Source of the DNA: a virus
Reading direction: 5' to 3' (one strand)
Virus record (IMG/VR): IMGVR_UViG_3300017970_000007
Span: 1 to 30,582 of that record
Length of the DNA stretch: 30,582 nt
A program made the translations under genes and the position numbers. The notes beneath the pieces were generated by a model that worked only from the letters and a program-made list of their open reading frames with translations, did no database searches and was not told the DNA's origin. Of this stretch, positions 944-27,309 are shown in pieces (within the stretch, counting starts at the first letter, position 1; each line of letters starts with the position of its first letter).

Positions 944-1227
944 AGCTCAGCAAGGCCGAGAGGGCGCACCTCGAGCGTCTGTTGGTGCACACCTTCAACG
1001 GCAAGAGGATCGTGTCCAGTAACGTCACGACCAACGCCACGCAGACCCGCCACCACGTGCTCTGCCAGCTCGAGAGAAAGGGCGCCGTCACGTTCGAGGA
1101 CGACGCGGGGCCGCTCTCGCAGGCCTTCGGCGTGCGCTTCTGGCACGTGAGGCCCACGGACGCCGGCCTCAGGCTCTTGGAGGAGACCCCGCAAACCGAC
1201 GGTTTGCGGGGTTCGCTGCGCTCATGA
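940..1227 (+). CDS. Small winged-helix-like protein with repeat-encoded C-terminus
   Basis: 95 residues, GTG start overlapping the upstream stop. The pattern KLSKAERAHLERLL, HHVLCQLERKGAV, then FWHVRPTDAGLRLLEE resembles a winged-helix DNA-binding domain: helices, a recognition helix with L-x-R-K-G, and a wing ending in LT-x-x-G. A protein at 8938-9222 has the same pattern. The last 12 residues (PQTDGLRGSLRS) are encoded by a dispersed palindromic repeat, whose tail supplies the stop codon and the ATG of the next gene. The family-level call is an inference from pattern; the DNA target is unknown. Confidence 0.65.
   Translation: MKLSKAERAHLERLLVHTFNGKRIVSSNVTTNATQTRHHVLCQLERKGAVTFEDDAGPLSQAFGVRFWHVRPTDAGLRLLEETPQTDGLRGSLRS
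1187..1227 (+). repeat. Dispersed palindromic repeat, short type, tail to the right
   Basis: CCCCGCAAACC (1187-1197), loop GAC, GGTTTGCGGGG (1201-1211), a perfect 11-bp stem, then the tail TTCGCTGCGCTCATGA (1212-1227). The tail holds the TGA of the upstream gene and the ATG (1224) of the downstream gene. This is the best-preserved copy and serves as reference for the family. Confidence 0.9.
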
Positions 1228-1765: not shown

Positions 1766-2199
1766 GTAGGAGAGAGACGATGGCCGAGGAGCGCTGGGTC
1801 GTGCGCGTCCTCAACACGGCGAGCACCCTCTTCGAGACCGGAGTCAGCGTCGTCGAAGAGTACTACTCCAAGGGCGAGAGGGGCGAGGCCGAGGCCAGAG
1901 ACCGCTACGTCGGCCTGTTCCGTGCCCACAAGAACAAGACGCTGTCCGTCCGGAGAGCGGGACAGGGGCGCTACCGGGTGGTGGAGAGCGAACATATGGG
2001 CCTGTCTCCGTACCCGCGCCGGTGGCGGTCGTACGAGCCTCACACGCTCTCGGACGGGCGCGTGGTCATGGGGTGGGTGGTGTACGTCGAGGACGACGTT
2101 CTCTCAGAGAAGCGTGCGATCTCGTTCGATCCCGACCCGACTGGAGCGAAGCGGAAGGAGTCCCCGCAAACCGCAGGTTTGCGGGACGATAAGTACTAA
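1762..2199 (+). CDS. Hypothetical protein with repeat-encoded C-terminus
   Basis: 145 residues. The ATG at 1762 is chosen for the ATGA overlap; an in-frame ATG at 1780 has the better Shine-Dalgarno (GGAGAGAGACG just upstream). The body is rich in charged residues, with DRYVGLFRAHKNKTLSVRR and several beta-like strands. The last residues (SPQTAGLRDDKY) are translated from a dispersed palindromic repeat, so the original C-terminus was probably shorter. Function unknown. Confidence 0.65.
   Translation: MSRRETMAEERWVVRVLNTASTLFETGVSVVEEYYSKGERGEAEARDRYVGLFRAHKNKTLSVRRAGQGRYRVVESEHMGLSPYPRRWRSYEPHTLSDGRVVMGWVVYVEDDVLSEKRAISFDPDPTGAKRKESPQTAGLRDDKY
2144..2185 (-). repeat. Dispersed palindromic repeat, short type, tail to the left
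   Basis: A degenerate tail GAGCGAAGCGGAAGGAG (2144-2160) is followed by CCCCGCAAACC, loop GCA, GGTTTGCGGG. The unit lies inside the coding end of the upstream gene and is read in frame as SPQTAGLRD. Confidence 0.8.
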
Positions 2200-2548: not shown

Positions 2549-2799
2549 GAGTCCCGCAAACTAAAGTTTGCGGGGACCAGTACCTCGCTGTCGCTGCGGT
2601 ACTGGCCGGCGCCTACAGGGGCGGCGACAAGCGCCTGCTCGTGCACGTCGCCGTGCTCGACGAGCAGGGCTACGTCAGAAGGGCGCTCTGCAGCTCCGTG
2701 CGCCCTGATTCCCTGACGACCGACTCGGTCAAGCCGGGCACGCGTCCCACTTGCCCGACCTGCGTCCGCAGGTCGATGAAGATGGGGTTTCAACCATGA
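2545..2799 (+). CDS. Hypothetical zinc-ribbon-like protein with repeat-encoded N-terminus
   Basis: 84 residues from a GTG in a GTGA overlap. Residues 3-10 (VPQTKVCG) come from a dispersed palindromic repeat, so the start region of this gene has been invaded or built by the repeat. The body has YLAVAAVLAGAYRGGDKR and, at the end, CSSVRP...TCPTCVRRSMK, a Cys arrangement that could bind zinc. Function unknown. It overlaps the following membrane-protein gene by ATGA. Confidence 0.6.
   Translation: MRVPQTKVCGDQYLAVAAVLAGAYRGGDKRLLVHVAVLDEQGYVRRALCSSVRPDSLTTDSVKPGTRPTCPTCVRRSMKMGFQP
2553..2574. repeat. Dispersed palindromic repeat, stem only
   Basis: CCCGCAAACT, loop AA, AGTTTGCGGG. The inner base pair is changed on both arms (C-G to T-A) compared with the 1187 copy, a compensatory change that keeps the hairpin. 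No tail is seen. It lies within the first codons of the gene at 2545. Confidence 0.8.
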
Positions 2800-3357: not shown

Positions 3358-3374
3358 GAACATACCAACAGGAA

Positions 3375-3394
3375 TCCCGCAGACTAAAGTTTGC
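3375..3394. repeat. Dispersed palindromic repeat, degenerate stem
   Basis: TCCCGCAGACT, loop AA, AGTTTGCG. One mismatch interrupts the stem and the distal GGG is lost. It lies in the 60-base gap between genes ending at 3357 and starting at 3418. No tail is present. Confidence 0.65.
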
Positions 3395-3417
3395 GCGCGA
3401 CACGCGGAGAAACCACC

Positions 3418-9590: not shown

Positions 9591-9834
9591 CCAGCTCTGT
9601 CCGGAATGTCACGGTCCTCCGACTCTGGAGTACGTCGCGGGCACGCACCTCAGAAAAAGGTGCACCGAGTGCGGCCACCGGTGGCTCGAAGAGCGCGCGG
9701 CCGACTCCGTCTCGCCCGAGGCCGCCCTGGGCCTGCAGGTCCCGATCGACGAGGCGAGGCGGATGAGCGAGGCGAAGCCGAGCGAACCCCGTAAACCGCA
9801 GGTTTGCGGGGTGCAGAAGGTCGTGAGACCATGA
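9580..9834 (+). CDS. Zinc-ribbon protein with repeat-encoded C-terminus
   Basis: 84 residues, ATG inside the previous gene's end. CPECHGPPTLEYV then RKRCTECGHRW is a textbook zinc ribbon with two CxxC pairs 20 residues apart, as in transcription or replication accessory proteins. The last ~18 residues (SEPRKPQVCGVQKVVRP) come from a dispersed palindromic repeat read in frame. ATGA overlap with the next gene. Confidence 0.7.
   Translation: MLADQLCPECHGPPTLEYVAGTHLRKRCTECGHRWLEERAADSVSPEAALGLQVPIDEARRMSEAKPSEPRKPQVCGVQKVVRP
9764..9811 (-). repeat. Dispersed palindromic repeat, short type, tail to the left
   Basis: A tail-like TGAGCGAGGCGAAGCCGAGC is followed by GAACCCCGTAAACC, loop GCA, GGTTTGCGGGG. 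One G-T type change is present in the stem. The whole unit is inside the coding end of the zinc-ribbon gene. Confidence 0.8.
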
Positions 9835-12492: not shown

Positions 12493-12620
12493 GCTACTAC
12501 TTGAGCGTCTGCTTCGTTCCTCTTACCCCGCAAACCTCCCGGTTTGCGTGGGTTCGCTCCGCTCATGATGCGCGTCGCGGACGCCAGGCGCGCCTACGAG
12601 CGTTTGAGAGCAGAAGGTAG
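12489..12620 (+). CDS. Mini-ORF reading through a palindromic repeat
   Basis: 43 residues from an ATG in an ATGA overlap with the previous gene. It starts MSYYLSVCFVPL and then reads the repeat (TPQTSRFAWVRSAHD) and an Arg-rich end. Whether it is an original gene cut by the repeat or repeat-made is unclear. A second frame starting at the repeat's own ATG (12565, 21 residues, ends 12630) overlaps it and would couple to the next gene instead. Confidence 0.4.
   Translation: MSYYLSVCFVPLTPQTSRFAWVRSAHDARRGRQARLRAFESRR
12526..12568 (+). repeat. Dispersed palindromic repeat, short type, tail to the right
   Basis: CCCCGCAAACC, loop TCC, CGGTTTGCGTGGG, then TTCGCTCCGCTCATGA. The stem has a GCGTGG variant also present at 19656. 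The tail ATGA leads into a small frame starting at 12565. Confidence 0.85.
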
Positions 12621-12629: not shown

Positions 12630-12857
12630 ATGGGATTCTTGGGCAGAAAATACAGCAGTGACGACGGTGACTCGGGGCGTGCCTTCTGGAGCGTGTCGTG
12701 CAAGAGCGACTCGCGCTTTGACGGCAGCGGCTACGCCTATACCGTCATCTCCGCGGCCCTCTCGGCCGAGGACCACATCCAGCGCAGGATCAAGGAGCTC
12801 GGCCTGCGGGACGACGAGGTCCCGGAGGACATCGAGTACGGTGGAGGAAAACCGTGA
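12630..12857 (+). CDS. Hypothetical protein
   Basis: 75 residues from ATG at 12630, overlapping the TGA of the small frame at 12565-12630. It begins MGFLGRKYSSDDGDSGRAFW and has YAYTVISAALSAEDHIQRRI. Its stop (TGA, 12855-12857) is the first base triplet of a palindromic repeat. Family not recognised. Confidence 0.6.
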   Translation: MGFLGRKYSSDDGDSGRAFWSVSCKSDSRFDGSGYAYTVISAALSAEDHIQRRIKELGLRDDEVPEDIEYGGGKP

Positions 12858-12904
12858 GCGCAGCGAATCCCCGCAAACGAAGCCGAAGGCGAGGTTTGCG
12901 GGAT
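12855..12904 (-). repeat. Dispersed palindromic repeat, long type, tail to the left
   Basis: The unit starts at the stop codon of the upstream gene: TGAGCGCAGCGAATCCCC, then GCAAAC, an inner hairpin GCC-GAA-GGC with flanking GAG, GTTTGCGGGAT. The outer stem is the family's, with a larger structured loop. It fills most of the 61-base gap. Confidence 0.88.
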
Positions 12905-12918
12905 AGGGAAGAGCGAAG

Positions 12919-13488: not shown

Positions 13489-13565
13489 ACCTCAACAAAT
13501 CGAACAAGGGATCATCCCGCAAACCTCGCCTGCGGCTCCGTTTACGGGATTCGCTGCGCTCATGA
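13485..13565 (+). CDS. Mini-ORF through a palindromic repeat
   Basis: 26 residues from an ATG in an ATGA overlap with the previous gene. After MNLNKSNKGSS it is entirely repeat-encoded and basic (RKPRLRLRLRDSLRS). It stops at the TGA of the repeat tail, in overlap with the ATG of the next gene. It bridges two genes that would otherwise be uncoupled; a function of the peptide is not claimed. Confidence 0.4.
   Translation: MNLNKSNKGSSRKPRLRLRLRDSLRS
13515..13565 (+). repeat. Dispersed palindromic repeat, long type, tail to the right
   Basis: TCCCGCAAACCTCGCC, TGC, GGCTCCGTTTACGGG, then ATTCGCTGCGCTCATGA. It is close to the reverse complement of the copy at 12855, showing that the same unit occurs in both orientations. 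The tail provides ATG 13562. Confidence 0.88.
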
Positions 13566-16663: not shown

Positions 16664-16983
16664 CTGACAAGAAGACAGACGACAGCAAGGTCGTCTCGAT
16701 CCTGCCGCACATCCACGGTCGCCTTGACGCGGCCATCCGCCAGGCCCGCGCGGACAGCAGACAAAAGTCGCTCGAGACCGAGAAGAAGAAGACGCCGGCA
16801 GAGCGACTCTACGACAGGCACATCACCTACAAACTGTGCCCGCAGAAGGGGTGCGAAGTCTGCCGCCTGCACATCGTAGCGGAGGCGGCCGAGTACCTCT
16901 TGACGGGCAAGGGTCCGAGGTCGCCGAAGGCGGCTCTCATGCTCCTTCAGGAATGCCTGCGGCGCGCGGGCAGGGAGGTCTAA
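16660..16983 (+). CDS. Hypothetical protein with Cys cluster
   Basis: 107 residues, ATG in ATGA overlap. A basic N-terminal half (RQARADSRQKSLETEKKK) is followed by YKLCPQKGCEVCRLHIVAEA, a C-x4-C-x2-C cluster, and a helical end. Family not recognised. Confidence 0.6.
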   Translation: MTDKKTDDSKVVSILPHIHGRLDAAIRQARADSRQKSLETEKKKTPAERLYDRHITYKLCPQKGCEVCRLHIVAEAAEYLLTGKGPRSPKAALMLLQECLRRAGREV

Positions 16984-16984
16984 G

Positions 16985-17305
16985 GTGCCCGAGGACGAAG
17001 AAGACAGGCACGAGGGCTACAGAAAGTCCCCCGAGCAAGTGCTCGAGGACCTTCGGAGCAAGTCCATGGAATGGCTCGTGCGCGAGGTCTGCGAGAACCA
17101 CGGCGTGGCAGCCCTGGAGCTCTGCGGCTTCTCGCGCCAGGCGCCCGTGCCCGCCGCGAGGGCGGATCTCTGGACCGCCCTGAAGGTCAAGTACCGCTGG
17201 AGCTACCCCAGGATCGGCGAGGTCTTCGGTGTCGACCACACGACCGTGATGTCCCACGTCAAGAACTACAAGGCTAGGAAGGATAGGAACAAAGACGATG
17301 ACTGA
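16985..17305 (+). CDS. Stand-alone DnaA domain IV-like DNA-binding protein
   Basis: 106 residues from GTG. ARADLWTALKVKYRWSYPRI, GEVFGVDHTTVMSHVKNYK (59-96) matches DnaA domain IV: the helix before the signature, S-x-x-x-IG-x-x-FG, then DHTTV, which contacts DnaA boxes. The AAA+ domain is absent and the first ~55 residues are an unrelated helical region with one WLVREVCENHG segment. It may bind the phage or host origin, or compete with host DnaA. It overlaps the MazG-like gene by 8 bases. Confidence 0.85.
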   Translation: MPEDEEDRHEGYRKSPEQVLEDLRSKSMEWLVREVCENHGVAALELCGFSRQAPVPAARADLWTALKVKYRWSYPRIGEVFGVDHTTVMSHVKNYKARKDRNKDDD

Positions 17306-17669
17306 AACAGATCAAGCGGGACCCTCGCGGATGGACGTAACAGACAAAACATTCGGCGTCCTTCGCGAGGTCTACGCCGAGCGAAAACGCCAGGACGCGC
17401 TTGTCAAAGAGGACAAGTTCCCGTGGAACTGCGCTCACCCAAAACCGCATTGGTCCGAGAAGCTCGCGGTGCTCGCGGAGGAGTTCGGCGAGGTCGGCCG
17501 GGAGGTGACCGAGTACCTCATCACCAGGGACAAGTACTTAGAGGACAAAGAGCTCGGAAGCATCCCGGACCACCGGGTCAAGTACTACAGGGATCGTTTG
17601 AGGAAAGAGCTCATCCAGGTCGCCGCCGTGTGCGTGGCGTGGGCGGAGTCGCTCGGAGGATCCTCGTGA
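17298..17669 (+). CDS. MazG-like nucleotide pyrophosphohydrolase
   Basis: 123 residues. FGVLREVYAERKRQDALV and EKLAVLAEEFGEVGREVTEYL (about 54-74) give the E-E-x-x-E helix of MazG folds, and YYRDRLRKELIQVAAVCVAW the second helix with ExxQ/D-type spacing. Such enzymes hydrolyse (d)NTPs to monophosphates, or (p)ppGpp in some proposals. The central loop (DKYLEDKELGSIPDHRVK) is longer than in minimal members. The gene ends in a GTGA overlap. Confidence 0.75.
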   Translation: MTETDQAGPSRMDVTDKTFGVLREVYAERKRQDALVKEDKFPWNCAHPKPHWSEKLAVLAEEFGEVGREVTEYLITRDKYLEDKELGSIPDHRVKYYRDRLRKELIQVAAVCVAWAESLGGSS

Positions 17670-17752
17670 GCAGCGAACCGACGGTACCAGGTCCGAACGT
17701 CAACTGTGCCAACCCCACGTCACTCGGTGGTACACATATTCGATGGTACTAA
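17666..17752 (+). CDS. Mini-ORF overlapping the start of the DUF3310 gene
   Basis: 28 residues from GTG in a GTGA overlap with the MazG-like gene, stop TAA at 17750-17752. It reads VSSEPTVPGPNVNCANPTSL and ends GGTHIRWY. It overlaps the first 47 bases of the DUF3310 frame. It could be a leader that couples the two genes, or the true 5' part of the DUF3310 gene before a frameshift. Confidence 0.35.
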   Translation: MSSEPTVPGPNVNCANPTSLGGTHIRWY

Positions 17753-18041
17753 ATGTCAAGCCTGCCCGAATCCAGGCAAGTGCGGCTGCACGTGCGTGAC
17801 TTGCAAGCCTTCGCAACCGACTCAAGAGGAAGCCGTAGACCACCCGAGCCACTACACCGCCCACCCCTCCGGCGTCGAATGCATCGACGTCGTGGAGCAC
17901 ATGACCTTCAACCTGGGAAACGCCGTGAAGTATGTCTGGAGGGCGGGACTCAAGAGCAAGGACATCCTGGTAGATTTGCGCAAAGCCGAGTGGTACATAC
18001 GTAGAGAGATAGGTAGGATCGAGAAGGAGAAGAAGCCATGA
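17706..18041 (+). CDS. DUF3310-like phage protein with N-terminal Cys-rich region
   Basis: 111 residues from GTG 17706 (GTG 17727 also possible). The C-terminal ~65 residues (VDHPSHYTAHPSGVECIDVV, FNLGNAVKYVWRAGLK, DLRKAEWYIRRE) are a clear DUF3310, a widespread phage family annotated as SaV-like and sometimes linked to nucleotide kinases. The N-terminus has CQACPNPGKCGCTCVTC, four to six Cys absent from most members. The start has no good Shine-Dalgarno. Confidence 0.85.
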   Translation: MPTPRHSVVHIFDGTKCQACPNPGKCGCTCVTCKPSQPTQEEAVDHPSHYTAHPSGVECIDVVEHMTFNLGNAVKYVWRAGLKSKDILVDLRKAEWYIRREIGRIEKEKKP

Positions 18042-18337
18042 CGGACATCGACGCGGGAATCAAACAGCGCGCCGCCGAGATCGCGGGCGCCAGGAAGACC
18101 GTCAGCTCGCGCCTCGAGAAGGCCGAGGTCATGACCAAGTGCATCCACGACGCCATCGTGGCAGGCTGCGAGCATTATAATGAGGCGGGCGACAAGCTCC
18201 CCGACGTGCTCTCCGTGCTCCGCGCCCTGCGCGACGAGGGGACCGTTACTGTGCTCCAGCCAGGCGGCGTGGCCGAGCGCGAGGCGTACGGCTTTTCCGG
18301 CATCCCGAGGCAGCCTCGCGTCAGGAGAACTCCGTGA
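18038..18337 (+). CDS. Hypothetical helical protein
   Basis: 99 residues, ATG in ATGA overlap. It is helical: IKQRAAEIAGARKTVSSRLE, HDAIVAGCEHYNEAGDKLPD, VLSVLRALRDEG. Family not recognised. GTGA overlap with the next gene. Confidence 0.6.
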   Translation: MTDIDAGIKQRAAEIAGARKTVSSRLEKAEVMTKCIHDAIVAGCEHYNEAGDKLPDVLSVLRALRDEGTVTVLQPGGVAEREAYGFSGIPRQPRVRRTP

Positions 18338-18681
18338 ACGTGGACCCCAACGTCCTGACGGTCGCCCTGGCCAAAGCGCTCACCGACTCAGTCACGGGCG
18401 AGGTGCAGAGAGACGTCCTTCAGAAAGCGATGCACGCGTACCTCTTCACGCCTTTCAAGCCCAACAGCTACTCCAACGAAATGACGACGCCGCTTGCCGA
18501 AAGCTTCAAGAAGGCCATCGACGCGGTGACGGGCGAGGTCGTGCGCGAAGTCTTGAGGCAACCCGAGTTTCGCTCCGTCATCGAGTCGAAGGTGGAAGAG
18601 GCTTTCCGGGCCACGATGCAGTCCAATACGGCTGTAGACAAGATGACGGAGAAGTTTTTGCGCATGTTCCAGTCGTGGTAG
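18334..18681 (+). CDS. Hypothetical helical protein with internal repeat
   Basis: 115 residues from GTG. Two similar halves are visible: ALTDSVTGEVQRDVLQKAM and AIDAVTGEVVREVLRQPEF, so the protein may be built from a repeated helical hairpin. No family recognised. Confidence 0.6.
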   Translation: MNVDPNVLTVALAKALTDSVTGEVQRDVLQKAMHAYLFTPFKPNSYSNEMTTPLAESFKKAIDAVTGEVVREVLRQPEFRSVIESKVEEAFRATMQSNTAVDKMTEKFLRMFQSW

Positions 18682-18687
18682 GTCGCA

Positions 18688-18873
18688 ATGTTGCCAGAAC
18701 AAGCCGCCCAGAGACTGCGCAAAGCCCTGTCGAGCATGATGCACTTCCGCAATCACTTTGACGGGTGCAGCCTGCTTACTGACCCAGGGTCAGACACCTG
18801 CACGTGCGGCCTGGCGGACCATGCCGCCTCCGCGCGTAAGGTCCTAGAGGAAACCCAAGAATACGCGACGTGA
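18688..18873 (+). CDS. Hypothetical small protein with Cys cluster
   Basis: 61 residues from ATG 18688. HFDGCSLLTDPGSDTCTCGL gives a C-x10-C-x-C cluster with His, and helical ends. No family recognised. It is followed by a 46-base gap without a strong promoter or hairpin. Confidence 0.55.
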   Translation: MLPEQAAQRLRKALSSMMHFRNHFDGCSLLTDPGSDTCTCGLADHAASARKVLEETQEYAT

Positions 18874-18919
18874 TTGTTCGATTATTGAGACCACACGAAC
18901 CTTGGAAAGTACAAAGATC

Positions 18920-19417
18920 ATGAAGAAGAGTCAGAAGAAACTGAAGAAGGCGCACACGCCGAGCAAGCATCGAACGAGCAAGAAGGTCGCCGCCGTCAAA
19001 GCGAAACACTCGCCGCCCGAGAGTACCGGCAACGTCGGAGTTCCTGAGAAAAAGCGTCCCAGCAAGGCCCAGATCGTGAGGGAGCTTCCCCTGTCGATGT
19101 CAGCCAAGGAGGTCATCGCGCACGCCAAGAGAGAGGGCGTACAGCTCCAGGAGTCCTACGTCTACAACGTCAGGACGGCCATGAAGATGAAGAAGACGTC
19201 TACCTACGGCCTGCTCAATCCGAACAACGGGGCGAGCGTCACGATCGGCGCTTGGGGTCACGGCGGCGGAGGCGGAGGTAACGGCGCGTCGAGACAGAGT
19301 CGCGCCGAGGAGCTGCTCGTCTCCGTAGCCTCGGAGGTCGGCCTGCCGCGCGCGCTCGAGGTCCTAGAGGGCATGCGGGCGCCGCTCTCGGAGTTCTTGG
19401 CTCCGCTCCTAGGATAG
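18920..19417 (+). CDS. Regulator-like basic protein (SKAQIVRELP type)
   Basis: 165 residues from ATG 18920; TTG 18902 is an alternative. The N-terminal ~45 residues are Lys-rich. KKRPSKAQIVRELPLSMSAK, EVIAHAKREGVQLQESYVYN then VRTAMK resembles a helical domain (SKS-x-FVR-x-LP, AKEV-x-x-KAK, YVYNVR) that I associate with Myxococcota proteins. The C-terminus has a Gly-rich linker and a helical end (LPRALEVLEGMRAPL). It may bind DNA or RNA; the host hint is from memory and unconfirmed. Confidence 0.6.
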   Translation: MKKSQKKLKKAHTPSKHRTSKKVAAVKAKHSPPESTGNVGVPEKKRPSKAQIVRELPLSMSAKEVIAHAKREGVQLQESYVYNVRTAMKMKKTSTYGLLNPNNGASVTIGAWGHGGGGGGNGASRQSRAEELLVSVASEVGLPRALEVLEGMRAPLSEFLAPLLG

Positions 19418-19422
19418 TCGCC

Positions 19423-19695
19423 ATGCCGCTATCTCAAGGCGATCCGGCCCTCGACTACGACGGCAGCTGGGGCGACGCCTCGGCAGGGTGGCCGTCGATC
19501 GAGTTCGCGTCGGAAGAAGAAGCGGAGCGCGCCTACGTCACCTGTTGGCAGGGCGCGAAGGTGCCGTACGGGTCGTACGTCCTGGTCGGCAGCGTGCTCC
19601 GGCTCGAGACAGAAGAATACAAGGAGCTCGTCGTGAAGTTCTTCTTCGGAGTCGTCCCGCAAACTAAAGTTTGCGTGGATTCGCTGCGCTCATGA
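19423..19695 (+). CDS. Hypothetical protein with repeat-encoded C-terminus
   Basis: 90 residues from ATG 19423, five bases after the upstream stop. An acidic body (ALDYDGSWGDASAGWPSIEF) is followed by FASEEEAERAYVTCWQGAKV and strands. The last residues VPQTKVCVDSLRS come from the palindromic repeat, which also supplies the stop. Family not recognised. Confidence 0.6.
   Translation: MPLSQGDPALDYDGSWGDASAGWPSIEFASEEEAERAYVTCWQGAKVPYGSYVLVGSVLRLETEEYKELVVKFFFGVVPQTKVCVDSLRS
19656..19695 (+). repeat. Dispersed palindromic repeat, short type, tail to the right
   Basis: CCCGCAAACT, loop AA, AGTTTGCGTGG, then ATTCGCTGCGCTCATGA. It shares the inner T-A pair with the 2553 copy. The tail contains the TGA of the upstream gene (19693-19695) and ATG 19692. 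Confidence 0.88.
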
Positions 19696-19859
19696 CAAGC
19701 TCAGAGATGATCGAGGAGTTCCTCGAACTCTTCATCGCGCCGGGCAATCGCGGCGCGGCGCGGTCGGCCTTGCGCAAGATGATCGCGCTCGCTGAGGCGC
19801 GCGCGAGGACCGACCAGGTGAAGGACGACCTGGCTAGACTGCGTGCGGGTCGCCCGTGA
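19692..19859 (+). CDS. Hypothetical small helical protein starting in a repeat
   Basis: 55 residues from the ATG of the repeat tail. It is fully helical: SSEMIEEFLELFIAPGN, AARSALRKMIALAEARART. Its stop overlaps the GTG of the cupin-like gene (GTGA). Family not recognised. Confidence 0.55.
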   Translation: MTSSEMIEEFLELFIAPGNRGAARSALRKMIALAEARARTDQVKDDLARLRAGRP

Positions 19860-20449
19860 TCATAGAACGCGAAGAAGTGCGCTCGATCCTCGAGCGCGCG
19901 AGAGACACCGGCGGCGCCCCGGACGGTAAGACCTGCTCGCTGCAGGGCATGGGCATGTTTCGCTTGTACCTCTCGCGCGAGGTGCGCCTGCACGTCTGGG
20001 ACAGCCGGTTCATCGTGGAGAAGGTGTCGACCATCCACACCCACCCGTGGGACTTCTTGAGCCACGTCCTCTCCGGAGTCATCCTCGACCGGAGGTTTTG
20101 CAAGTTTGACCAGGCGACATCCGAGACCAGTAACTACCTGGAACAAGAGATCGTCTGCGGCCCGGGCGGAGGAGCGTCAGGCAGGCCTACCCCAGTCCGG
20201 CTCAAGTGGGACGGAGACGCCGTCACAGTGAGGGGCTACGAGTACATCCACTCGCACTCAGACATCCACGAGACCGTGGCGAAGTGCGGCACCGTGACGC
20301 TCGTCGAGCGAAAGTTCAAGAAGGACACCGAGCACGCGCTCGTGTACTTCCGCAAGGACAGGACGTGGGTGTCCGCCGAACCACGGCCCGCTCGCGAGGA
20401 CGAGGTGAAATCGATGGCGCGGATGGCGCTCGACCGGTGGGAGGCCTGA
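19856..20449 (+). CDS. Cupin-like protein
   Basis: 197 residues from GTG in a GTGA overlap. FRLYLSREVRLHVWD then STIHTHPWDFLSHVLSGVIL (His61, His63, His70) is the metal-binding cupin motif 1 pattern, and GYEYIHSHSDIHETV plus CGTVTLVERK could provide motif 2. A beta-barrel of strands is consistent. Members of this type occur in phages and bacteria without an assigned reaction. The stop (TGA, 20447-20449) starts a composite palindromic element. Confidence 0.7.
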   Translation: MIIEREEVRSILERARDTGGAPDGKTCSLQGMGMFRLYLSREVRLHVWDSRFIVEKVSTIHTHPWDFLSHVLSGVILDRRFCKFDQATSETSNYLEQEIVCGPGGGASGRPTPVRLKWDGDAVTVRGYEYIHSHSDIHETVAKCGTVTLVERKFKKDTEHALVYFRKDRTWVSAEPRPAREDEVKSMARMALDRWEA

Positions 20450-20589
20450 GCGTAGCGAATCCCCGCAAACGGAGCCGAAGGCGAGGTTTGCGGGATAGTG
20501 AATAGGAGAATGTGATGACTGATCCTGAGAACTTCCATACCCCGCAAACCTTCGGTTTACGGGGTTTCGCTCGCTGCGCTCGCTCATGA
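20447..20589. repeat. Composite palindromic element, copy A
   Basis: 143 bases made of a left-tailed long unit (20447-20496), a 43-base spacer with AATAGGAGAA as Shine-Dalgarno and a mini-ORF start, and a right-tailed short unit (20540-20589). The outer ends, TGAGCGTAGCGAA and its counterpart ...GCTCATGA, are inverted. The spacer is nearly identical to that of copy B (22501-22645). The left end is the stop codon of the cupin gene; the right end is the start of the next gene. Confidence 0.9.
20515..20589 (+). CDS. Mini-ORF inside composite element A
   Basis: 24 residues from ATG 20515 with AGGAG upstream. It starts MTDPENFHTPQTFGLRGF and ends ARCARS at the TGA of the repeat tail, overlapping the ATG of the next gene (ATGA). 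The same N-terminal peptide is encoded by element B. It probably works as a leader that restores translation across the repeat. Confidence 0.45.
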   Translation: MTDPENFHTPQTFGLRGFARCARS

Positions 20590-21194
20590 AGATCTTCTGG
20601 AAAGAGAACCCCTTGGCGACGCTCATCGAGCTCGACGCGCACGACCGGCGAGTCCTGCGCCTGCTCGTCGAGATTGAAGACCTGAAGGAGCGAATCGGCA
20701 TAGCCCACCTCGACCTCGACCCGAAGGACAGGGAGTGGCGAGACAAGACCATCGGGCCGCGGTCGCTCGAGGCTGCGGTCGCGTCAGCACTCACGCAGCT
20801 CGAGATCCCCGACGACGTAGAAAAGAAGTACGCCGAGCGGGCCGAGAATTACATCGGGGCGCTGCTCGACGCGCACGCGGGCGACTGCACGTGCCAGCCA
20901 TGCAGTTGCATCAAGTGCCACGCTGAGTCGCTCTTGGGTGTCAACACGACCAAAGGCCTCGGCAAACACGAGGGAAGCTACGTCGACGACGCGTTTGCGC
21001 CGCGCTCTGGCGGTAGTGTGCCGACGCTGCGCGAGGCCATCGAGAGCCTGAGAGACTACAGGCCCGAGAAGGGCGCCGGGTGGGAGAAGTGCTCGCAAGA
21101 GGAGTTCGACGCGCACGTCCCGAGGTGGACCAAGGAGGCCAAGGGCGCCCACGACTGGCTCGTGGCCTACGAGAAGGAGCACTTCTCCAAGTGA
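20586..21194 (+). CDS. Hypothetical protein with Cys-rich centre
   Basis: 202 residues from the ATG in the element A tail. A helical N-terminal part (LIELDAHDRRVLRLLVEIED) is followed by CTCQPCSCIKCHAESLLG (residues ~100-117), a dense Cys cluster. A further part reads VPTLREAIESLRDYRPEK. It may be a metal-binding protein; no family recognised. GTGA overlap with the next gene. Confidence 0.6.
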   Translation: MKIFWKENPLATLIELDAHDRRVLRLLVEIEDLKERIGIAHLDLDPKDREWRDKTIGPRSLEAAVASALTQLEIPDDVEKKYAERAENYIGALLDAHAGDCTCQPCSCIKCHAESLLGVNTTKGLGKHEGSYVDDAFAPRSGGSVPTLREAIESLRDYRPEKGAGWEKCSQEEFDAHVPRWTKEAKGAHDWLVAYEKEHFSK

Positions 21195-21424
21195 ACTCGG
21201 ACCTAGTCAGACACCTGGTCGTCCGGGACCCGGGTAACTACAACCGCATCGGCTCGTGGGCCACGAGCATGCTGGCGGCCTGCGGCCTACATTTGCCACC
21301 TCATCAACCGCGCGAGGTCACATGCCGCCTCGACCTGACCACGTGCGAAGGCTGCAAGATGTGGGCGCAGGGTCACATGGACAAGATGAGGCAGGATTCT
21401 CTTGGATACTGGGTGGTCCTATGA
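21191..21424 (+). CDS. Hypothetical small protein with Cys motif
   Basis: 77 residues from GTG. It contains DLTTCEGCKMWAQGHMDKMR and an upstream TCRLD, giving a possible three-Cys site with His. ATGA overlap with the next gene. Family not recognised. Confidence 0.55.
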   Translation: MNSDLVRHLVVRDPGNYNRIGSWATSMLAACGLHLPPHQPREVTCRLDLTTCEGCKMWAQGHMDKMRQDSLGYWVVL

Positions 21425-21445
21425 GCGGAGCGAAGCGGAGCGAAG
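21421..21445 (-). repeat. Possible remnant of the repeat tail
   Basis: TGAGCGGAGCGAAGCGGAGC at the junction of two genes resembles the left-facing tail TGAGCGCAGCGAA in tandem, without the palindromic stem. It encodes the N-terminal residues MSGAKRSEG of the next gene. Confidence 0.4.
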
Positions 21446-21792
21446 GGCTAGGAAAATGCGCCTCGTGCGACGGCTATAGAAAAAATAAAGTCCACGACGA
21501 CCAGTGCCCCTTCAAGCGTTTCGAAGAGCGCGATCTCCAGCTCGGTCTATGGTTTCAGTGTCTTGCCTGCGGGGGCTACGTCGGTTTCTTCCCGGTCGGC
21601 AAAGGTCACCCGCGCCACCCGATACCCCCGGGTTCGGTCGCGCACAGCAAGCCTGAAGGAAAGATCGGCATCCCCGACTCTACCGGGTGTGAGATGTACA
21701 GGTCTCTGTCGCCGCGCGAGATCTGGGCGATTCATATGAACGAGCAGCCCCTGCAAGAGCAGCCGAGCGAGTTTCGGCCGCTGGAGGGATAG
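21421..21792 (+). CDS. Hypothetical zinc-ribbon-like protein
   Basis: 123 residues, ATG in ATGA overlap. GKCASCDGYRKNKVHDDQCP and LWFQCLACGGYVGFF provide paired Cys for one or two zinc ribbons. The rest has GIPDSTGCEMYRSLSPREIW. Family not recognised. Confidence 0.6.
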   Translation: MSGAKRSEGLGKCASCDGYRKNKVHDDQCPFKRFEERDLQLGLWFQCLACGGYVGFFPVGKGHPRHPIPPGSVAHSKPEGKIGIPDSTGCEMYRSLSPREIWAIHMNEQPLQEQPSEFRPLEG

Positions 21793-21794
21793 CG

Positions 21795-22559
21795 ATGACC
21801 TCCTCCAAGCACTCCAAGGTCGATCGCGTGCACGCTCCGCAGAACCCGCGGCTCTGGGTCGACCTCTACCTCGACAAGGACTCGGGGTCATTCTTCGCTG
21901 ACGTCGGAAAAGAGCGCCTCACGGCCGACACCAAGAAGAAGGCCAAGGAGAAGATCCAGGCGCGCCTCTCAAAGCTCACGCAAGCCGCGTGGCGCGAAGT
22001 CATCGTCGTCCGCACAAGGAAGCGAAAGGAGAATGACCACCACAGCACGGAGAACGGCAAGCCCGTCTACTCGTGCTCCTGCTCCTTCACGTACATGCGC
22101 CGCGAGCGGTCCGTCAACCCCTTGAAGCCCAAGGAGACTATCGAGCGCGAGCACCAGGCTGACTTCGAGACCCGTGTCAGAGAGGAGCGAGAAAGAGCGG
22201 CGTCATGGAGAGGTTACGGCAAGAGCGGGAAAGAGGCCGCGGACGAGCGTGAGGCTGCGCTTCGCCAGGACAGAGAGAACCTGAAGGGGATCGACAGCCA
22301 GTGGTCGTCTTTTCGGGACGACGAAGTCGAGTACGAGATCCCGTATACGGAGCTTGCCTGGGAAGGCATCGGCCGCATCTCCATCGCCATGCAAGAAACG
22401 CAGAGGCGCCTCGACGACTTTGCCAAGAGCGCCACACCAAGCAAGCTCGCGATGCTCGCGGCGGGCGAGGTGCTCCGGTTTCTGCCGGGGCCGAATGCTG
22501 TGAGCGAAGCGAATCCCCGCGAACCCGCGCGTCAGCGGGGTTTGCGGGATGGTGAATAG
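21795..22559 (+). CDS. Hypothetical protein with repeat-encoded C-terminus
   Basis: 254 residues. The N-terminal part, WVDLYLDKDSGSFFADVGKE then LTADTKKKAKEKIQARL, is a small alpha/beta domain. The centre is charged and helical with a CSCSF motif and many Arg/Glu (ETRVREERERAASWRGYGKS), and LAMLAAGEVLRFLPG is near the end. The last ~19 residues (from VSEANPREPARQRGL) come from the left unit of composite element B read in a frame that escapes its TGA. No family recognised. Confidence 0.6.
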   Translation: MTSSKHSKVDRVHAPQNPRLWVDLYLDKDSGSFFADVGKERLTADTKKKAKEKIQARLSKLTQAAWREVIVVRTRKRKENDHHSTENGKPVYSCSCSFTYMRRERSVNPLKPKETIEREHQADFETRVREERERAASWRGYGKSGKEAADEREAALRQDRENLKGIDSQWSSFRDDEVEYEIPYTELAWEGIGRISIAMQETQRRLDDFAKSATPSKLAMLAAGEVLRFLPGPNAVSEANPREPARQRGLRDGE

Positions 22560-22645
22560 GAGAATACGGATGACTGAGTCTAAGAACTTCCATACCCCGC
22601 AAACCTCCGGTTTACGGGGTTTCGCTCGCTACCGCTCGCTCATGA
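22501..22645. repeat. Composite palindromic element, copy B
   Basis: 145 bases with the same plan as copy A: a left-tailed long unit (22501-22550; inner stem CCCGC/GCGGG), a spacer with AATAGGAGAA and a mini-ORF start, then a right-tailed unit (22595-22645). The tail reads TCGCTACCGCTCGCTCATGA instead of copy A's TCGCTGCGCTCGCTCATGA, and this length change puts the mini-ORF in frame with the next gene. Confidence 0.9.
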
Positions 22646-23097
22646 AGCGAATGACTGCAGCGCAGGCCACCGAGTTCTTCGTGGTCTACTTCGAGAAGGA
22701 CGAATTGCCGAACAGCCCGACCGACGAAGAGCTCCGAGCCCTGGCGAGGCAGGCCGCCTCAGCCCTGCGCCTGCTCGCTCCTGACATCACGGTGGACAAA
22801 ACCGACGCGAAGCGCGGCTTCTCGGAGGCCCTGCGAAGGCGCGGAGTCCTGCACCCGGAACTCGGGGTGGAAGACCACAGCGAGCTCGCCGCGCACTACG
22901 CGAGGGCGTGCGGGAGCGACAGGCAGCTCGCGCTCTTGATGGCCCTGTCCGCCGGCTTCTCCTTCGAGCGCGCCGTCTCGGCGTTCGGCGACGAGGGCCT
23001 TCGGATCGCCTTCGCCGCCACGGCTGAGGGCTACATCGACCGCGGAGTCCTGACGGACAAGGGCCGGGCGCGCATCGCGGCGGCGAGCGAGGCGTGA
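22570..23097 (+). CDS. Hypothetical helical protein fused to the element B mini-ORF
   Basis: 175 residues if started at ATG 22570 (AGGAG upstream), or 151 from ATG 22642 in the repeat tail, which is the likely ancestral start. The body is helical: MTAAQATEFFVVYFEKDELP, TDEELRALARQAASALRLLA, DRQLALLMALSAGFSFERAV. It ends at a TGA that begins another repeat. Family not recognised. Confidence 0.6.
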   Translation: MTESKNFHTPQTSGLRGFARYRSLMKRMTAAQATEFFVVYFEKDELPNSPTDEELRALARQAASALRLLAPDITVDKTDAKRGFSEALRRRGVLHPELGVEDHSELAAHYARACGSDRQLALLMALSAGFSFERAVSAFGDEGLRIAFAATAEGYIDRGVLTDKGRARIAAASEA

Positions 23098-23144
23098 GCG
23101 CAGCGAATCCCGGGCAGCGGTACCGCAGGCGAGGTTTGCAGAAT
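23095..23144 (-). repeat. Dispersed palindromic repeat, long type, diverged
   Basis: TGAGCGCAGCGAATCCCG, then GGCAGCGG, TACC, GCAGGCGAGGTTTGC. It starts at the upstream stop codon. The interior differs from other long copies but is very like the copy inside the DNA polymerase at 23566, 470 bases away. Confidence 0.75.
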
Positions 23145-23160
23145 AGGGAGACTTTCGGCA

Positions 23161-23448
23161 ATGAAGTGGAACATAGGTGACGACGTCCCAAGACTCGGCG
23201 AGCGACTCTATCGCCGCGACACGGGCGAGAGCGCAGAGGTCACGCACGTCTGCGAGGCTGGCAGAATCCCACCCATGTCTCTCTGCGCCCCGTCATACGA
23301 CGGCGACGTCGTCATGCAGTACGGCCCAGGACGCTACAGTGTCTGTTCAGGAGGCGCATACTTCTGGCAGCGGTGGAAGAGGCCAGGCAGCGATCACCTG
23401 CTTTATCTGTCGTTTGCCACCGGTTGCAATCCTTCGCTGCGCTCATGA
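23161..23448 (+). CDS. Hypothetical protein ending in a degenerate repeat
   Basis: 95 residues from ATG 23161. It is beta-rich: DDVPRLGERLYRRDTGESAE, VMQYGPGRYSVCSGGAYFWQ. The final FATGCNPSLRS is encoded by a degenerate repeat whose tail supplies the stop, in ATGA overlap with the polymerase start. Family not recognised. Confidence 0.6.
   Translation: MKWNIGDDVPRLGERLYRRDTGESAEVTHVCEAGRIPPMSLCAPSYDGDVVMQYGPGRYSVCSGGAYFWQRWKRPGSDHLLYLSFATGCNPSLRS
23411..23448 (+). repeat. Degenerate palindromic repeat, tail intact, at the polymerase start
   Basis: The stem has decayed (CGTTTGCCACCGGTTGCAA), but the tail CCTTCGCTGCGCTCATGA (23431-23448) is intact and contains ATG 23445 of the DNA polymerase. 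This suggests the tail is kept because it carries the start site. Confidence 0.7.
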
Positions 23449-25802
23449 GAGGCTACCTCGCAGAGGAGCTGCCGCGCGAGCTCGCGCCGCGCGCGAGCAA
23501 GAAGAGGAAGAAGAAGGACTGGCTGTCCTACCGCTTCGTCGGCATCGACGGCGAGGGGATGGATGTGAGCGAGCGAATCCCGGACAGCGGTGACGACAGG
23601 CGAGGTTTGCGGGACGGGTTCGAGAGTCCGGTTCGGAGACACCTCTACACCTACCTGTGTGCCACGGCCGAGGACGGCGAGGTCATCAGTGACTGCTATA
23701 GAGACACAGGCTTGACCCACGACGAGATCTGCAACGTGCTCCTGGCAGTACCCAGTGACTGCCTGTGCTTCGGCTACATGATCTCCTACGACATCACCAA
23801 GTGGATAGAAGCCCTGCCGGACGAGGACAAGTACCGCCTGCTGCGCCCTGACACGCGTCAGATCTACAGGTGCAAGGACTGCCACCGCACCTTCGCCGTG
23901 GGGCTGAAGTTCTGCCCGCACTGCCTCGGCCACGAGTTTCGCGAAGGCAACGACCCGATCAGGTGGAGCGGCCGCCAGTACGACTACTTCGCCGGGCCCT
24001 TCGAGGTCTGGGGAGACAGGGACCCCAATAACCGCAAGTGGCGCAGCCACACCAAGGTGTGGGACGTCATCCGGTTCTTCGGCACGTCCTTCGTGCAGGC
24101 CATCACCGACTGGAAGGTTGGCACTGCCGAGCAGCACGCGCGCATCGACGCGATGAAGAAGAAGCGCGGCTCCTTCGACGTCGAGAAGGAGGAAGACATC
24201 AAGGGGTACTGCCGGCAGGAGTGCGAGCTGCTCGCCCAGATGATGCGAAAGGTGGTGGAGGGCCACGTCGACGCCGGCTGGGAGCTTCGGGCCTTCTACG
24301 GGGCCGGCTCGACGGGCAAGGCCATGCTCACCGCGAACGGCGTCAAGGCCTACAAGGGGCCGAAGATCGGGTCGCTCGACCCCGCGCTCGCCATCGCCAT
24401 CATGAGCGCGTTCTTCGGCGGCAGGTTCGAGGACAGCCACGTAGGCGTCGTAAGACGTCCGATCTGGAGCAAGGACATCGCTAGCGCGTATCCGTACGCC
24501 ATGGTGCGCCTGCCGTGTCTCGCGTGCGGCAGCTGGCGGCGAATCGGCCCCGGCAAGTCGCTCCTGCGCGAAGTCGCCCAGGCGCCGCTCGCGTGCTGCC
24601 GGTTCACCGTCAGGAGCCTGCCGGAAAAAGAGCGAAGGCAGATGGCCTGGGCGCCGCTCCCTTTCCGCGACGAGTCGGGATCCATCGCGTACCCGCTCAA
24701 TTTCAGCGGCTGGGCGTGGAAGCCCGAGGCGATGCAGGCCCTCTTGGGCTGGCCAGATCTGGTCAAGATCGAGGAGGCGTGGGTCTATGACCAGGCCTGC
24801 GACCATAAGCCCTTCGAGTTCATGCCGGACGTCTACAGGCGCCGCGTTGCGATCGGAAAGGAGGGGCCAGGCCTAGTCCTGAAGCTCGGGGCGAACGCCG
24901 GTTACGGCGTCACGGCGCAGAGCATAGGCGACGACCCGCCTTTCCAGGAGTGGGTGTGGGCGGGCAACATCACATCGTCCTGCCGGGCGCAGGCCCTGGA
25001 GGTCTTCCGGTCGGCCAAGGACCCCTGGAGCATCCTCACCGTCGCGACCGACGGGATATGCGGGACCGAGGACTTCGCCGTCCCCATCCCCTTCGAGACC
25101 GGGACGCGCGGCTGCAGGGCGCCGCCGACCAAGGAGCATCCGGAGGGAGAGATCAAGCAACCGCTCGGCGGCTGGGAGAGCGAGGCGATACCCGAGGGGA
25201 TGTTCATCGCCAAGCCGGGGATGTACTGGCGCCTGGACCTCACGGACACGAAGAAGATGCGGGCCAGGGGCATAGGCAGAAAGGAGCTCTTCGATAGCAA
25301 GGACCGCGTGATCTCTGAATTTCTCAGGTGGGACAGGAAAGATTTCAAGTTCAAAGTCGTCGTGGAGAGCCGGAGATTTTTTGGAGCGAAGTCGACCATC
25401 TACGCCCGGTCTCGCTGCAACAAGTGCAACGTGAGCTGGCCCGGCACGCCCGAAAGACTGTGCCCCCGCTGCGGCTCTCTTGGTGTAGATTTTCGGGCGA
25501 TGCGCCAGACGCAAGTCACAGACGAGACGAGAAAAGACGAGGGGCGCGTCGACGTCTACGGGACCTGGGGGGTGAGGGCGATCGACATAAGGTTCGACCC
25601 GTTCCCCAAGCGCGAGCGCGAGGTCGGCAAGGGCGAGTGCTCGCGCCTCTTCGTGCGCGACGCGGACGGCAAGATGAGCTCTCCGTACAAGGGCGACAAG
25701 ACCCCGGAGGCGCTCGCTCTGATACCCGAGGCGGAGATGCTGGAGGAGCAGCCGGACTGCGGCGTCGACGTACTAGACATGGACGACCTCGGTGATGTCT
25801 GA
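23445..25802 (+). CDS. Family B DNA polymerase with in-frame repeat insertion and two zinc motifs
   Basis: 785 residues. Exo I is FVGIDGEG (31-38). Residues ~41-58 (VSERIPDSGDDRRGLRDG) are encoded by a palindromic repeat. Exo II is near CFGYMISYDITKW (108-120). A zinc motif CKDCHRTFAVGLKFCPHC lies at 143-160. Exo III is YCRQE (255-259), with Glu where Asp is usual. Motif A is DIASAYP (344-350), motif B KLGANAGYG (480-488), motif C ATDG (534-537) instead of DTDS, keeping the second Asp. GMYWRLD and GIGRKEL lie in the thumb, and a second zinc motif (CNKCNVSW...CPRC) is near 657-675. It is the likely replicative polymerase. The ATG is in the repeat tail. Confidence 0.93.
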   Translation: MRGYLAEELPRELAPRASKKRKKKDWLSYRFVGIDGEGMDVSERIPDSGDDRRGLRDGFESPVRRHLYTYLCATAEDGEVISDCYRDTGLTHDEICNVLLAVPSDCLCFGYMISYDITKWIEALPDEDKYRLLRPDTRQIYRCKDCHRTFAVGLKFCPHCLGHEFREGNDPIRWSGRQYDYFAGPFEVWGDRDPNNRKWRSHTKVWDVIRFFGTSFVQAITDWKVGTAEQHARIDAMKKKRGSFDVEKEEDIKGYCRQECELLAQMMRKVVEGHVDAGWELRAFYGAGSTGKAMLTANGVKAYKGPKIGSLDPALAIAIMSAFFGGRFEDSHVGVVRRPIWSKDIASAYPYAMVRLPCLACGSWRRIGPGKSLLREVAQAPLACCRFTVRSLPEKERRQMAWAPLPFRDESGSIAYPLNFSGWAWKPEAMQALLGWPDLVKIEEAWVYDQACDHKPFEFMPDVYRRRVAIGKEGPGLVLKLGANAGYGVTAQSIGDDPPFQEWVWAGNITSSCRAQALEVFRSAKDPWSILTVATDGICGTEDFAVPIPFETGTRGCRAPPTKEHPEGEIKQPLGGWESEAIPEGMFIAKPGMYWRLDLTDTKKMRARGIGRKELFDSKDRVISEFLRWDRKDFKFKVVVESRRFFGAKSTIYARSRCNKCNVSWPGTPERLCPRCGSLGVDFRAMRQTQVTDETRKDEGRVDVYGTWGVRAIDIRFDPFPKREREVGKGECSRLFVRDADGKMSSPYKGDKTPEALALIPEAEMLEEQPDCGVDVLDMDDLGDV
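23566..23614 (-). repeat. Palindromic repeat inserted in frame within the DNA polymerase gene
   Basis: TGAGCGAGCGAATCCCGG, ACAGCGGTGACGACAGGCG, AGGTTTGCGGGAC. It lacks an in-frame stop because the TGA is read out of frame. It adds ~18 residues just after Exo I, in a loop between two strands of the exonuclease sheet. It is nearly the same subtype as the copy at 23095. Confidence 0.85.
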
Positions 25803-25995: not shown

Positions 25996-26216
25996 AGGGC
26001 TTCATCGACGTCGCGCTCCCAGTCTCGTGGGTGGAGCCTGCCCGCTGGCGCAACCCGAAGAGGAGGTCTACCGAAGAGACTGAGGAGAAGAAGAAGATCT
26101 GGCTCGTCTTTCGCACCTGCAAGGCGCGGTGCCTCGCGTGCGGCGAGTGCGGTTATTTCTGGGGCCCGGACCACGACAAGCTCGCGGGGCAGCCCGCGCG
26201 GTTCGGGATCGCATGA
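25992..26216 (+). CDS. Hypothetical small Cys-rich protein
   Basis: 74 residues, ATG in ATGA overlap. CKARCLACGECGYFWGPDHD gives four closely spaced Cys and a His. The N-terminal half has VALPVSWVEPARWRNPKRR. Function unknown. Confidence 0.55.
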   Translation: MKGFIDVALPVSWVEPARWRNPKRRSTEETEEKKKIWLVFRTCKARCLACGECGYFWGPDHDKLAGQPARFGIA

Positions 26217-26739: not shown

Positions 26740-27239
26740 TGAGCCCAGACCAAGTCAAGGATCGCGTGGCGCAGGAGTCGGCTTCCCTGCACAACAGCCG
26801 CATCCCAGCGCCGACCACGATCACGGCGATCGAGGCCCGCGTGGAGGAGGAGGTCAAGACTGCGGGCGGGACGAGGGCGAGTAGCGCCATCGCGCTCGAC
26901 CCGCCCCAGCCCGACCAGACCAACGACTTCCGGGTCAAACCGCCGAAACCCTGCGAGGGGTGCGGCGGCCCCGCGCACGGGTCGGCCACGCAGGGCTACA
27001 ACTGCGTCCGTGACCGGATGAGGGAGGCGCGCGTGGCGCTAGGGCAGAAAGGGCCCTTCGCGTGCGACGGCTGCGGCAAGTCACATGCCCACTTCGACCA
27101 GGTGGTAGCGTGCATGCGCGGCGCGCTCAAGAGAGCGCGCGAGCGCGAGGGCATCGGGGTTAGTAGAGCCCAGTTCGAGGAGAACCGAAGAAGCTCGGAG
27201 CACTTCGAGCGCACGCGGGGGAAGGGCAAGGCGCTGTGA
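26739..27239 (+). CDS. Hypothetical protein with two zinc-ribbon-like motifs
   Basis: 166 residues from ATG 26739. PPKPCEGCGGPAHG then YNCVRDRM, and GPFACDGCGKSHAHFDQVVA then CM give two CxxC/H clusters. The N-terminal third is polar and possibly disordered. The TGA stop (27237-27239) starts a long repeat unit. May bind nucleic acid; family not recognised. Confidence 0.6.
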   Translation: MSPDQVKDRVAQESASLHNSRIPAPTTITAIEARVEEEVKTAGGTRASSAIALDPPQPDQTNDFRVKPPKPCEGCGGPAHGSATQGYNCVRDRMREARVALGQKGPFACDGCGKSHAHFDQVVACMRGALKRAREREGIGVSRAQFEENRRSSEHFERTRGKGKAL

Positions 27240-27288
27240 GCGTGAGCGAATCCCCGCGAACCCGCGCGCCAGCGGGGTTTGCGGGATA
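27237..27288 (-). repeat. Dispersed palindromic repeat, long type, tail to the left
   Basis: TGAGCGTGAGCGAATCCCC, then GCGAACCCGC, GCGCCA, GCGGGGTTTGCGGGAT, followed by AGTGAATAGTAG, which resembles the spacer of the composite elements. It is nearly identical to the left unit of element B, and looks like half of a composite element. Confidence 0.88.
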
Positions 27289-27309
27289 GTGAATAGTAGA
27301 GAGTGCAAA

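Follow-up and report, generated by a model that had tools for sequence, protein, structure and literature searches.

The analysed window, a 30,582-nt stretch of DNA from an uncharacterised virus (IMG/VR record IMGVR_UViG_3300017970_000007), contains two composite elements on the plus strand, at 20447..20589 (copy 1) and 22501..22645 (copy 2). Each is built of two repeat units with their heads outward, which enclose a Shine-Dalgarno (SD) sequence and a short ORF. In copy 1, the left unit (20447-20498) is followed by AGGAG (20504-20508), a putative 24-codon leader ORF from ATG 20515 (AGGAG and leader together, 20504..20589) and an inverse right unit (20538-20587). In copy 2, the left unit (22501-22552) precedes AGGAG (22558-22562), ATG 22570 and the inverse right unit (22593-22644), with AGGAG and predicted ORF spanning 22558..23097. 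In line with the first-pass annotation of this DNA, TGAGCG stands at 20447 and 22501, CGCTCATGA ends at 20589 and 22645, TGAATAGGAGAAT is common to both spacers, each ATG has AGGAG 6-7 nt upstream, and both composites have outer inverted termini TGAGCG...CGCTCA of the MITE type. Its proposal that translation from the start codon continues into the next gene is correct for copy 2, whose ORF (22570-23097) crosses the right unit in frame into the gene and includes a second in-frame ATG at 22642. It does not hold for copy 1, in which the leader ends at TGA 20587-20589, overlapping the ATG (ATGA at 20586) of gene 20586-21194.

The two composites had been called near-identical, which is too strong for 123/145 identical positions (85%). 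Their left units agree at 41/51 positions, and spacer plus right unit at 84/95. The left unit of copy 1 matches a single unit at 12855 at 48/50 positions, compared to 41/51 for the left unit of copy 2, while the latter matches the unit at 27237 at 48/51. The composites are thus mosaic, with unit subfamilies crossing between them.

Alignment of the units defined an asymmetric repeat of about 50 nt (consensus RTGAGCGnAGCGAAtCCCCGCAAAC-[4-15 nt]-GTTTGCGGGAT), a hairpin with a 9-bp stem, a loop of 4-15 nt and a one-sided head, TGAGCGnAGCGAA, ahead of the stem. Where three places had been noted, the composites belong to a larger family of at least 15 copies, found in either orientation between genes that share one direction and known from this one virus genome. 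Fifteen copies in 30.6 kb are confident, 11 of them at other genes beside the composite units. In a held-out test, 14/14 units were re-found (E 1e-12 to 3e-6; best non-family match E >= 0.86); the 15th, a degenerate minus-strand unit at 28436..28497, scored 29.8 bits and was left out of model building. At one mismatch or fewer, GTTTGCGGG occurred 34 times, compared to 7.4 expected and a highest count of 14 among 100 shuffles. Loops and reading frames vary among the units, and no conserved peptide is encoded.

The units are concentrated at gene borders, relative to genes that were themselves called on this sequence: 16/17 hairpins lay no more than 40 nt from a gene edge, whereas random placement gave 5.1 ± 1.9 and none of 5000 placements reached 16. 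Read in the plus direction, TGAGCG of the head often provides the stop codon of the upstream gene. This was the case for the single units at 12854..12906 (gene 12630-12857; next ATG 12919), 23094..23146 (decayed stem; gene ending at 23097; next ATG 23161) and 27236..27289 (gene 26739-27239; next ATG 27310). The last of these had been described as a partial composite copy at 27237-27300; a left unit is indeed present, and as it now stands the site consists of this single unit plus a leader, as at 12855 and 23095. Two further plus-oriented units lie in the C-terminal parts of ORFs, at 9763..9815 (in frame in ORF 9580-9834) and at 2144..2189 (degenerate head; ORF 1780-2199).

Read in the minus direction, the head provides CGCTCATGA, an overlapping stop and start. 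This sequence occurred nine times (Markov mean 0.27, maximum 3 in 200), and its ATG opened an ORF of at least 21 codons in 9/9 cases; overlapping stops and starts of the 4-nt kind were found at 41/72 called gene junctions. Among the minus-strand single units, that at 1183..1227 combines the stop of ORF 940-1227 with the start of ORF 1224-1478 through CGCTCATGA, that at 13511..13563 the stop of the short ORF beginning at 13485 with the start of gene 13562-13975, and that at 19651..19693 the stop of ORF 19423-19695 with the start of ORF 19692-19859. In the unit at 12521..12567, the ATG opens a 21-codon ORF ending at 12630, the start of the next gene. Shorter relatives were also seen: a head-only remnant, TTCGCTGCGCTCATGA, on the minus strand at 23432..23448, which supplies the start codon of the DNA polymerase gene (23445); a second, ATGAGCGGAGCGAAG, at a stop/start overlap on the plus strand (21421..21443); a weak head-type match (19.8 bits) on the minus strand at 29752..29787, at the start of ORF 29786-30049; and two plus-strand sites with the hairpin only, at 2551..2576 near the start of ORF 2545-2799 and at 3374..3399 in the gap 3357-3418. 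Stop and start codons contributed to gene junctions by both unit orientations are a recurrent feature, wider than the leader read-in.

One plus-strand unit (23565..23616) lies in frame within the phi29-type DNA polymerase gene (23445-25802), where it encodes about VSERIPDSGDDRRGLRDG and matches the other copies at DNA level with E 2e-11 to 4e-8. The exonuclease-domain loop at this place comprises 27 aa, compared to 5-11 aa in 19/19 homologues covering it, and in the predicted structure residues 43-63, between two strands, have pLDDT < 50. The closest relatives (L067 and L068) lack the unit. Polymerase alignments gave 19 relatives, then 2, with the closest at 33% identity, and a polymerase-only search of viral contigs found no relatives. 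As judged from these alignments, the in-frame copy and the shorter loops of the homologues are an independent sign of insertion; since the nearest homologues are only ~33-39% identical, the loop may also have grown in another way.

Searches for the family elsewhere, which may leave out records very near the window, retrieved the exact unit pattern from no viral contig. The hairpin was absent from all 13 genome stretches with the head-plus-left-arm pattern and from all 16 viral stretches with the head pattern; the tail pattern occurred in 11 viral stretches. A spacer search, suggested earlier as a check, matched one contig, in which the match was an ordinary ribosome-binding site without a unit. 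The unit model R1, applied to 47/97 loci, scored at most 28.2 bits, with loci picked by the patterns in the top rows; a SNF2 helicase search added 25 distant loci, some of which were scanned with the unit model. Phages gave 0 records, and plasmids gave 13, in which all matches were short (E >= 0.4). Among the 73 predicted proteins, Pfam matches revealed no transposase or RAYT; the record probably covers only part of a genome. In a check for target-site duplication, TGA was found at both composite ends, where it is also required as a stop codon, and since no copy turned up in the other genomes searched, there is no empty site at the nucleotide level to compare.

Taken together, we consider it fairly probable that the units form a private family of non-autonomous, REP/RPE-like palindromes that has spread in this virus and is tolerated at gene borders. 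From one unit, copies would have spread to numerous sites in either orientation, alone or as the head-outward pairs seen in the composites, either by a transposase acting in trans or by recombination between copies. Gene junctions would be the main places where copies persist, as the head can itself serve as a legal gene boundary, with TGA as upstream stop one way and ...CGCTCATGA as overlapping stop and start the other way. A ribosome-binding site, inside the composites and downstream of single plus-oriented units, may then restart translation. Each composite would close every reading frame with a stop and supply an SD together with a leader ORF that reads through the right hairpin; this leader ends on the downstream ATG or continues in frame with it, and may thereby render the downstream gene translatable via coupling or reinitiation. 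In the DNA polymerase gene, in-frame insertion of one unit would have given rise to the larger, poorly ordered exonuclease-domain loop. The family itself, its orientations and places, the mosaic units and the longer polymerase loop are shown by the data, whereas mobility, its route and every step of translation are inferred.

Alternatively, the units could be fixed regulatory start-associated elements, akin to SAS/ESAS, that control downstream translation or transcription and are kept by selection without mobility. In favour of this, an ATG accompanied by an SD-like stretch lies 64-73 nt after each of five plus-oriented units, placing an inverted repeat upstream of a ribosome-binding site, much as SAS/ESAS are described to be placed (PMC3203893); hairpins occupy 7/12 called gaps of at least 50 nt; and the composites form much better folds than shuffled sequences do (z -5.2 and -4.5). 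Nevertheless, the 23095 unit and the polymerase unit fold no better than shuffles, several units are located at or inside gene ends and one within the polymerase, and both orientations are used, with an A-C mismatch on the transcribed strand in three minus-oriented units. The only sigma-70-like site found in 12400-28600 lies outside the units, and the leader codons of the two composites are four substitutions apart, each of which changes an amino acid; the leader peptide lacks conservation between copies. Fixed regulation is therefore unlikely. The two poorly folding units also count against the main reading, as does the stem variation, which included no compensatory pair; stem pairing (92.9%) was close to that in shuffles (92.2%; 72/500 as high) with no covariation beyond them, and Rfam gave no match at the gathering threshold. 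On the unit's own strand, eight one-sided changes were all to G-U or U-G, a wobble bias that can be explained by common descent. As candidate terminators, matches in 12400-28600 fell on a unit only at 28440 and on the minus strand, and this role was rejected.

It is rather unlikely that the units are recombination cassettes, exchanging modules at gene borders by homology and spreading by conversion between elements instead of transposition. Their location and the mosaic left and right composite parts would agree with this, but the in-frame polymerase copy and the single units with unrelated flanks are left unexplained by it. Similarly doubtful is a self-spreading translation boundary cassette, in which a composite would stop three frames and restart at its own SD, and the leader would melt the second hairpin and deliver the ribosome to the ATG downstream. 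In a GC-rich genome, codon-driven low-complexity sequence could account for TGAGCGnAGCGAA alone, which is also present in unrelated contigs, but is refuted and very improbable given the excess over shuffles, the held-out recovery and the finding of head with hairpin nowhere else searched. Finally, two similar composites 2 kb apart might be remains of a duplicated gene block, an explanation with almost no probability left: further copies lie at other genes, and it is refuted by unrelated flanking DNA, with none of the homology past the element ends that the first-pass annotation had named as refuting its proposal (100-nt flanks 49% identical on both sides; random sequence pairs 48 ± 4%).

If the palindromes are mobile, they would show a repeat multiplying in a genome with almost no intergenic space, and insertions adding peptide segments to a replicative polymerase; they also offer a testable case for the unexplained gene-border repeats of many phages. 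The boundary-cassette idea, if true, would mean that a densely overlapped phage genome accepts insertions or new genes at any junction with downstream expression kept, as a natural counterpart of engineered bicistronic designs. REP-like repeats have been described from bacterial chromosomes, and a limited literature search found no family of this kind that resides in a phage and has stop and start codons as part of its ends.

Among known systems, the promoter-early stem-loop (PeSL) cassettes of T4, reportedly treated by Arbiol in 2010, are likewise hairpins at phage gene borders and have reportedly been proposed to let phages swap gene modules by homology. The T4 cassette contains an early promoter, whereas no sigma-70-like promoter site was found within the present units in 12400-28600. 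In plan the composites resemble MITEs and BIMEs: the units are inverted, the inverted termini face outward around a short body, the copies are dispersed and their flanks are unrelated. This earlier reading is supported in part, by the plan and the in-frame polymerase copy; no target-site duplication or nucleotide-level empty site came to light, nor any autonomous partner or cognate transposase among the 73 predicted proteins of this probable fragment, and there is no REP tag. The SAS/ESAS of cluster K mycobacteriophages, as far as the cited source describes them (PMC3203893), are also phage repeats with inverted repeats directly upstream of SD and start codon; the TM4 copies differ in sequence from this family, and ESAS are reported to contain promoter hexamers (PMC11373665). 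The 13-bp SAS sequence GGGATAGGAGCCC had eight window matches at three or fewer mismatches, compared to 11.4 expected, none of them in units, and was rejected. With the Rickettsia palindromic elements (RPEs) the family shares palindromic DNA that lies in frame within a gene and extends a conserved protein by a short peptide (the 27-aa polymerase loop). It differs in length (about 50 nt compared to about 150 nt in the account of PMC10969869), in its location mostly at gene borders and in a peptide without conservation.

The closest likeness is to REP, BIME and REPIN sequences: they too are short hairpins tagged on one side, which occur in either orientation, as inverted pairs (here the two composites), at gene ends and within genes. 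REPs are described as palindromes of 20-40 bp in many copies (stem 5-13 bp, loop 2-20), and the present palindrome, stem, loop and copy number correspond, the whole unit with head being about 50 nt. REPs carry GTAG or CGTC at the hairpin foot (PMC3733652), and RAYT association is described, in the material cited, for GTAG REPs only; the present head is TGAGCGnAGCGAA. The family further differs in residing in a virus with no RAYT recognised, in a minus orientation that also gives a start codon, and in a composite that encloses an SD and a predicted leader ORF. Judged by sequence, the virus palindromes resemble bacterial REP repeats but form a separate family, and the likeness extends to REP ends that give stop codons and to REP copies inside DNA polymerase and repair genes (PMC3733652), matched here by the head TGA and the unit within the viral DNA polymerase.

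Matches to the composite element at 20447-20589 were found by BLAST at 13 places in the record, and alignment of 14 units in one orientation gave the consensus RTGAGCGnAGCGAAtCCCCGCAAAC-loop-GTTTGCGGGAT, a one-sided head followed by a hairpin with a loop of 4-15 nt; hairpins at 2553, 3376, and 28440, which have no good head, were left out of this alignment. Leave-one-out profiles built from 13 units recovered the held-out unit at E <= 3e-6 in 14 of 14 cases, with the best non-family match at E >= 0.86. A covariance model added a unit at 28436-28497 (29.8 bits) and, with lower scores, matched the head alone at 21421, 23432, and 29752. No copy of the unit was detected outside the window in the viral contigs, genome contigs, phages, and plasmids searched. 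The head alone occurs in unrelated contigs, and without the hairpin it carries no meaning by itself. Among the contigs retrieved for comparison, two from one Deltaproteobacteria MAG (L039, 3332; L040, 4705) have TGAGCGAAGCGAACCCCGCAAACGGGATGCAAGC in common, without a hairpin, and two others (L017, 1313-1365; L022, 5143-5195) carry a different, identical inverted pair on TGAGCGCAGCGAAACCC with a short spacer, which is probably a common bacterial intergenic repeat. The repeat family is real, REP-like in habit, new in sequence, and resident in a phage.

Both composites (copy 1, 20447-20589; copy 2, 22501-22645) lie where the first-pass annotation had placed them, with the Shine-Dalgarno sequence and ATG it described. 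In each, a plus-oriented unit is followed by the Shine-Dalgarno sequence with a short ORF and then by a minus-oriented unit, so that the heads face outward. The copies are identical at 123 of 145 positions, and their similarity does not extend beyond the element ends, as it would in the duplicated gene block that the annotation had named as grounds for rejecting its reading (100-nt flanks, 49%; random pairs, 48 +- 4%). The left unit of copy 1 groups with the unit at 12855 (48/50 identical) and that of copy 2 with the unit at 27237 (48/51), while the two left units share 41/51 positions and the spacer plus right unit 84/95, indicating that the parts of the composites differ in history. As RNA, each composite was predicted to form two hairpins closed by a stem between both heads, a fold that beat 200/200 shuffles (z -5.2 and -4.5); seven single stretches gave z from -3.8 to +1.4. 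The proposal that the internal start reads into the downstream gene held for copy 2, whose putative leader ORF is in frame with that gene, but not for copy 1, where the ORF comprises 24 codons and ends on the next ATG. All four substitutions between the leader codons, aligned to the hairpin end, change the amino acid, so conservation does not lie in the peptide.

The 30,582-base IMG/VR record, which the window spans entirely, is probably a fragment. A codon-score script, run on the plus strand only, called 73 genes, and 4-nt overlaps such as ATGA occur at 41 of the 72 junctions. Sixteen of 17 hairpins lie <=40 nt from a called gene edge (random placement, 5.1 +- 1.9; 16 reached in 0/5000 trials). 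In four of the seven clear-headed plus units (12855, 20447, 23095, and 27237) a called gene terminates at the head TGA, and the other three (9764, 22501, and 23566) are read through in frame. In both composites the interval from the head TGA to the following ATG contains stops in every frame; in three single units, the corresponding interval has stops in two frames. The ATG within CGCTCATGA opens an ORF at all nine occurrences in the window: it is a called gene start in six, lies in frame within a called gene in two (390 and 22642), and opens a 21-codon ORF at 12565; the occurrence at 385 is not part of any recognised unit. Elsewhere, the record encodes two nucleoside 2-deoxyribosyltransferase-like genes (1-289 and 12919-13488; PF05014, PHROG 355), an SNF2 helicase (6932-8941), and a ParB-like gene (14187-15209). 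Further Pfam matches comprised a DnaA C-terminal helix-turn-helix, a Lar restriction-alleviation protein, DnaJ, and DUF3310, and ORF 16028-16663 contains a 24-bp tandem repeat of ~3.5 copies (16190-16280).

One unit lies inside the gene at 23445-25802, a family B DNA polymerase (PHROG 11768, E 4e-29) whose predicted structure is closest to phi29 DNA polymerase (Foldseek E 2e-14). At the DNA level, the stretch 23566-23614 is similar to four other units (E 2e-11 to 4e-8). Of 20 aligned homologues, 19 cover this place (L072 starts later); all 19 have 5-11 residues between DGEG and the next strand, compared with 27 in the window polymerase. About 16 loop residues are attributable to the unit, which leaves a few of the extra residues unexplained when the loop is compared with that of the nearest relatives (5 residues). 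In the predicted structure, built from 18 sequences (mean pLDDT 71), residues 43-63 fall between two strands with pLDDT < 50. The unit is absent from the two closest polymerase relatives, L067 and L068 (33% identity by tblastn, 38-39% in alignments). The window polymerase also has cysteine-pair segments (residues ~143-165 and ~657-675) that resemble zinc ribbons and have no counterpart in these two.

The most economical explanation is that a non-autonomous palindrome has been copied at the DNA level and is tolerated at gene junctions because both its ends are legal gene boundaries. Indirect evidence for movement comes from unrelated flanks, both orientations, variants common to distant units, the polymerase loop, and composites of mosaic make-up. 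Counting against movement are the absence of a recognised transposase among the Pfam matches of the 73 predicted proteins, the lack of covariation found in the units, an unproven target duplication, and the want of a nucleotide-level empty site. The units may also act in regulation or recombination, and either is compatible with past mobility.

The units have parallels among known repeats. As described in PMC3733652, bacterial REPs supply stop codons from their ends and have copies in DNA polymerase genes, habits shared by our units; REPs carry a GTAG or CGTC tag, whereas the window units have neither. The SAS/ESAS of mycobacteriophages (PMC3203893, PMC11373665) are like the units in place but unlike them in sequence, and PMC7302621 and PMC4351075 describe further phage repeats without a known role. 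The nearest parallel to the polymerase copy is provided by RPEs (PMC10969869).
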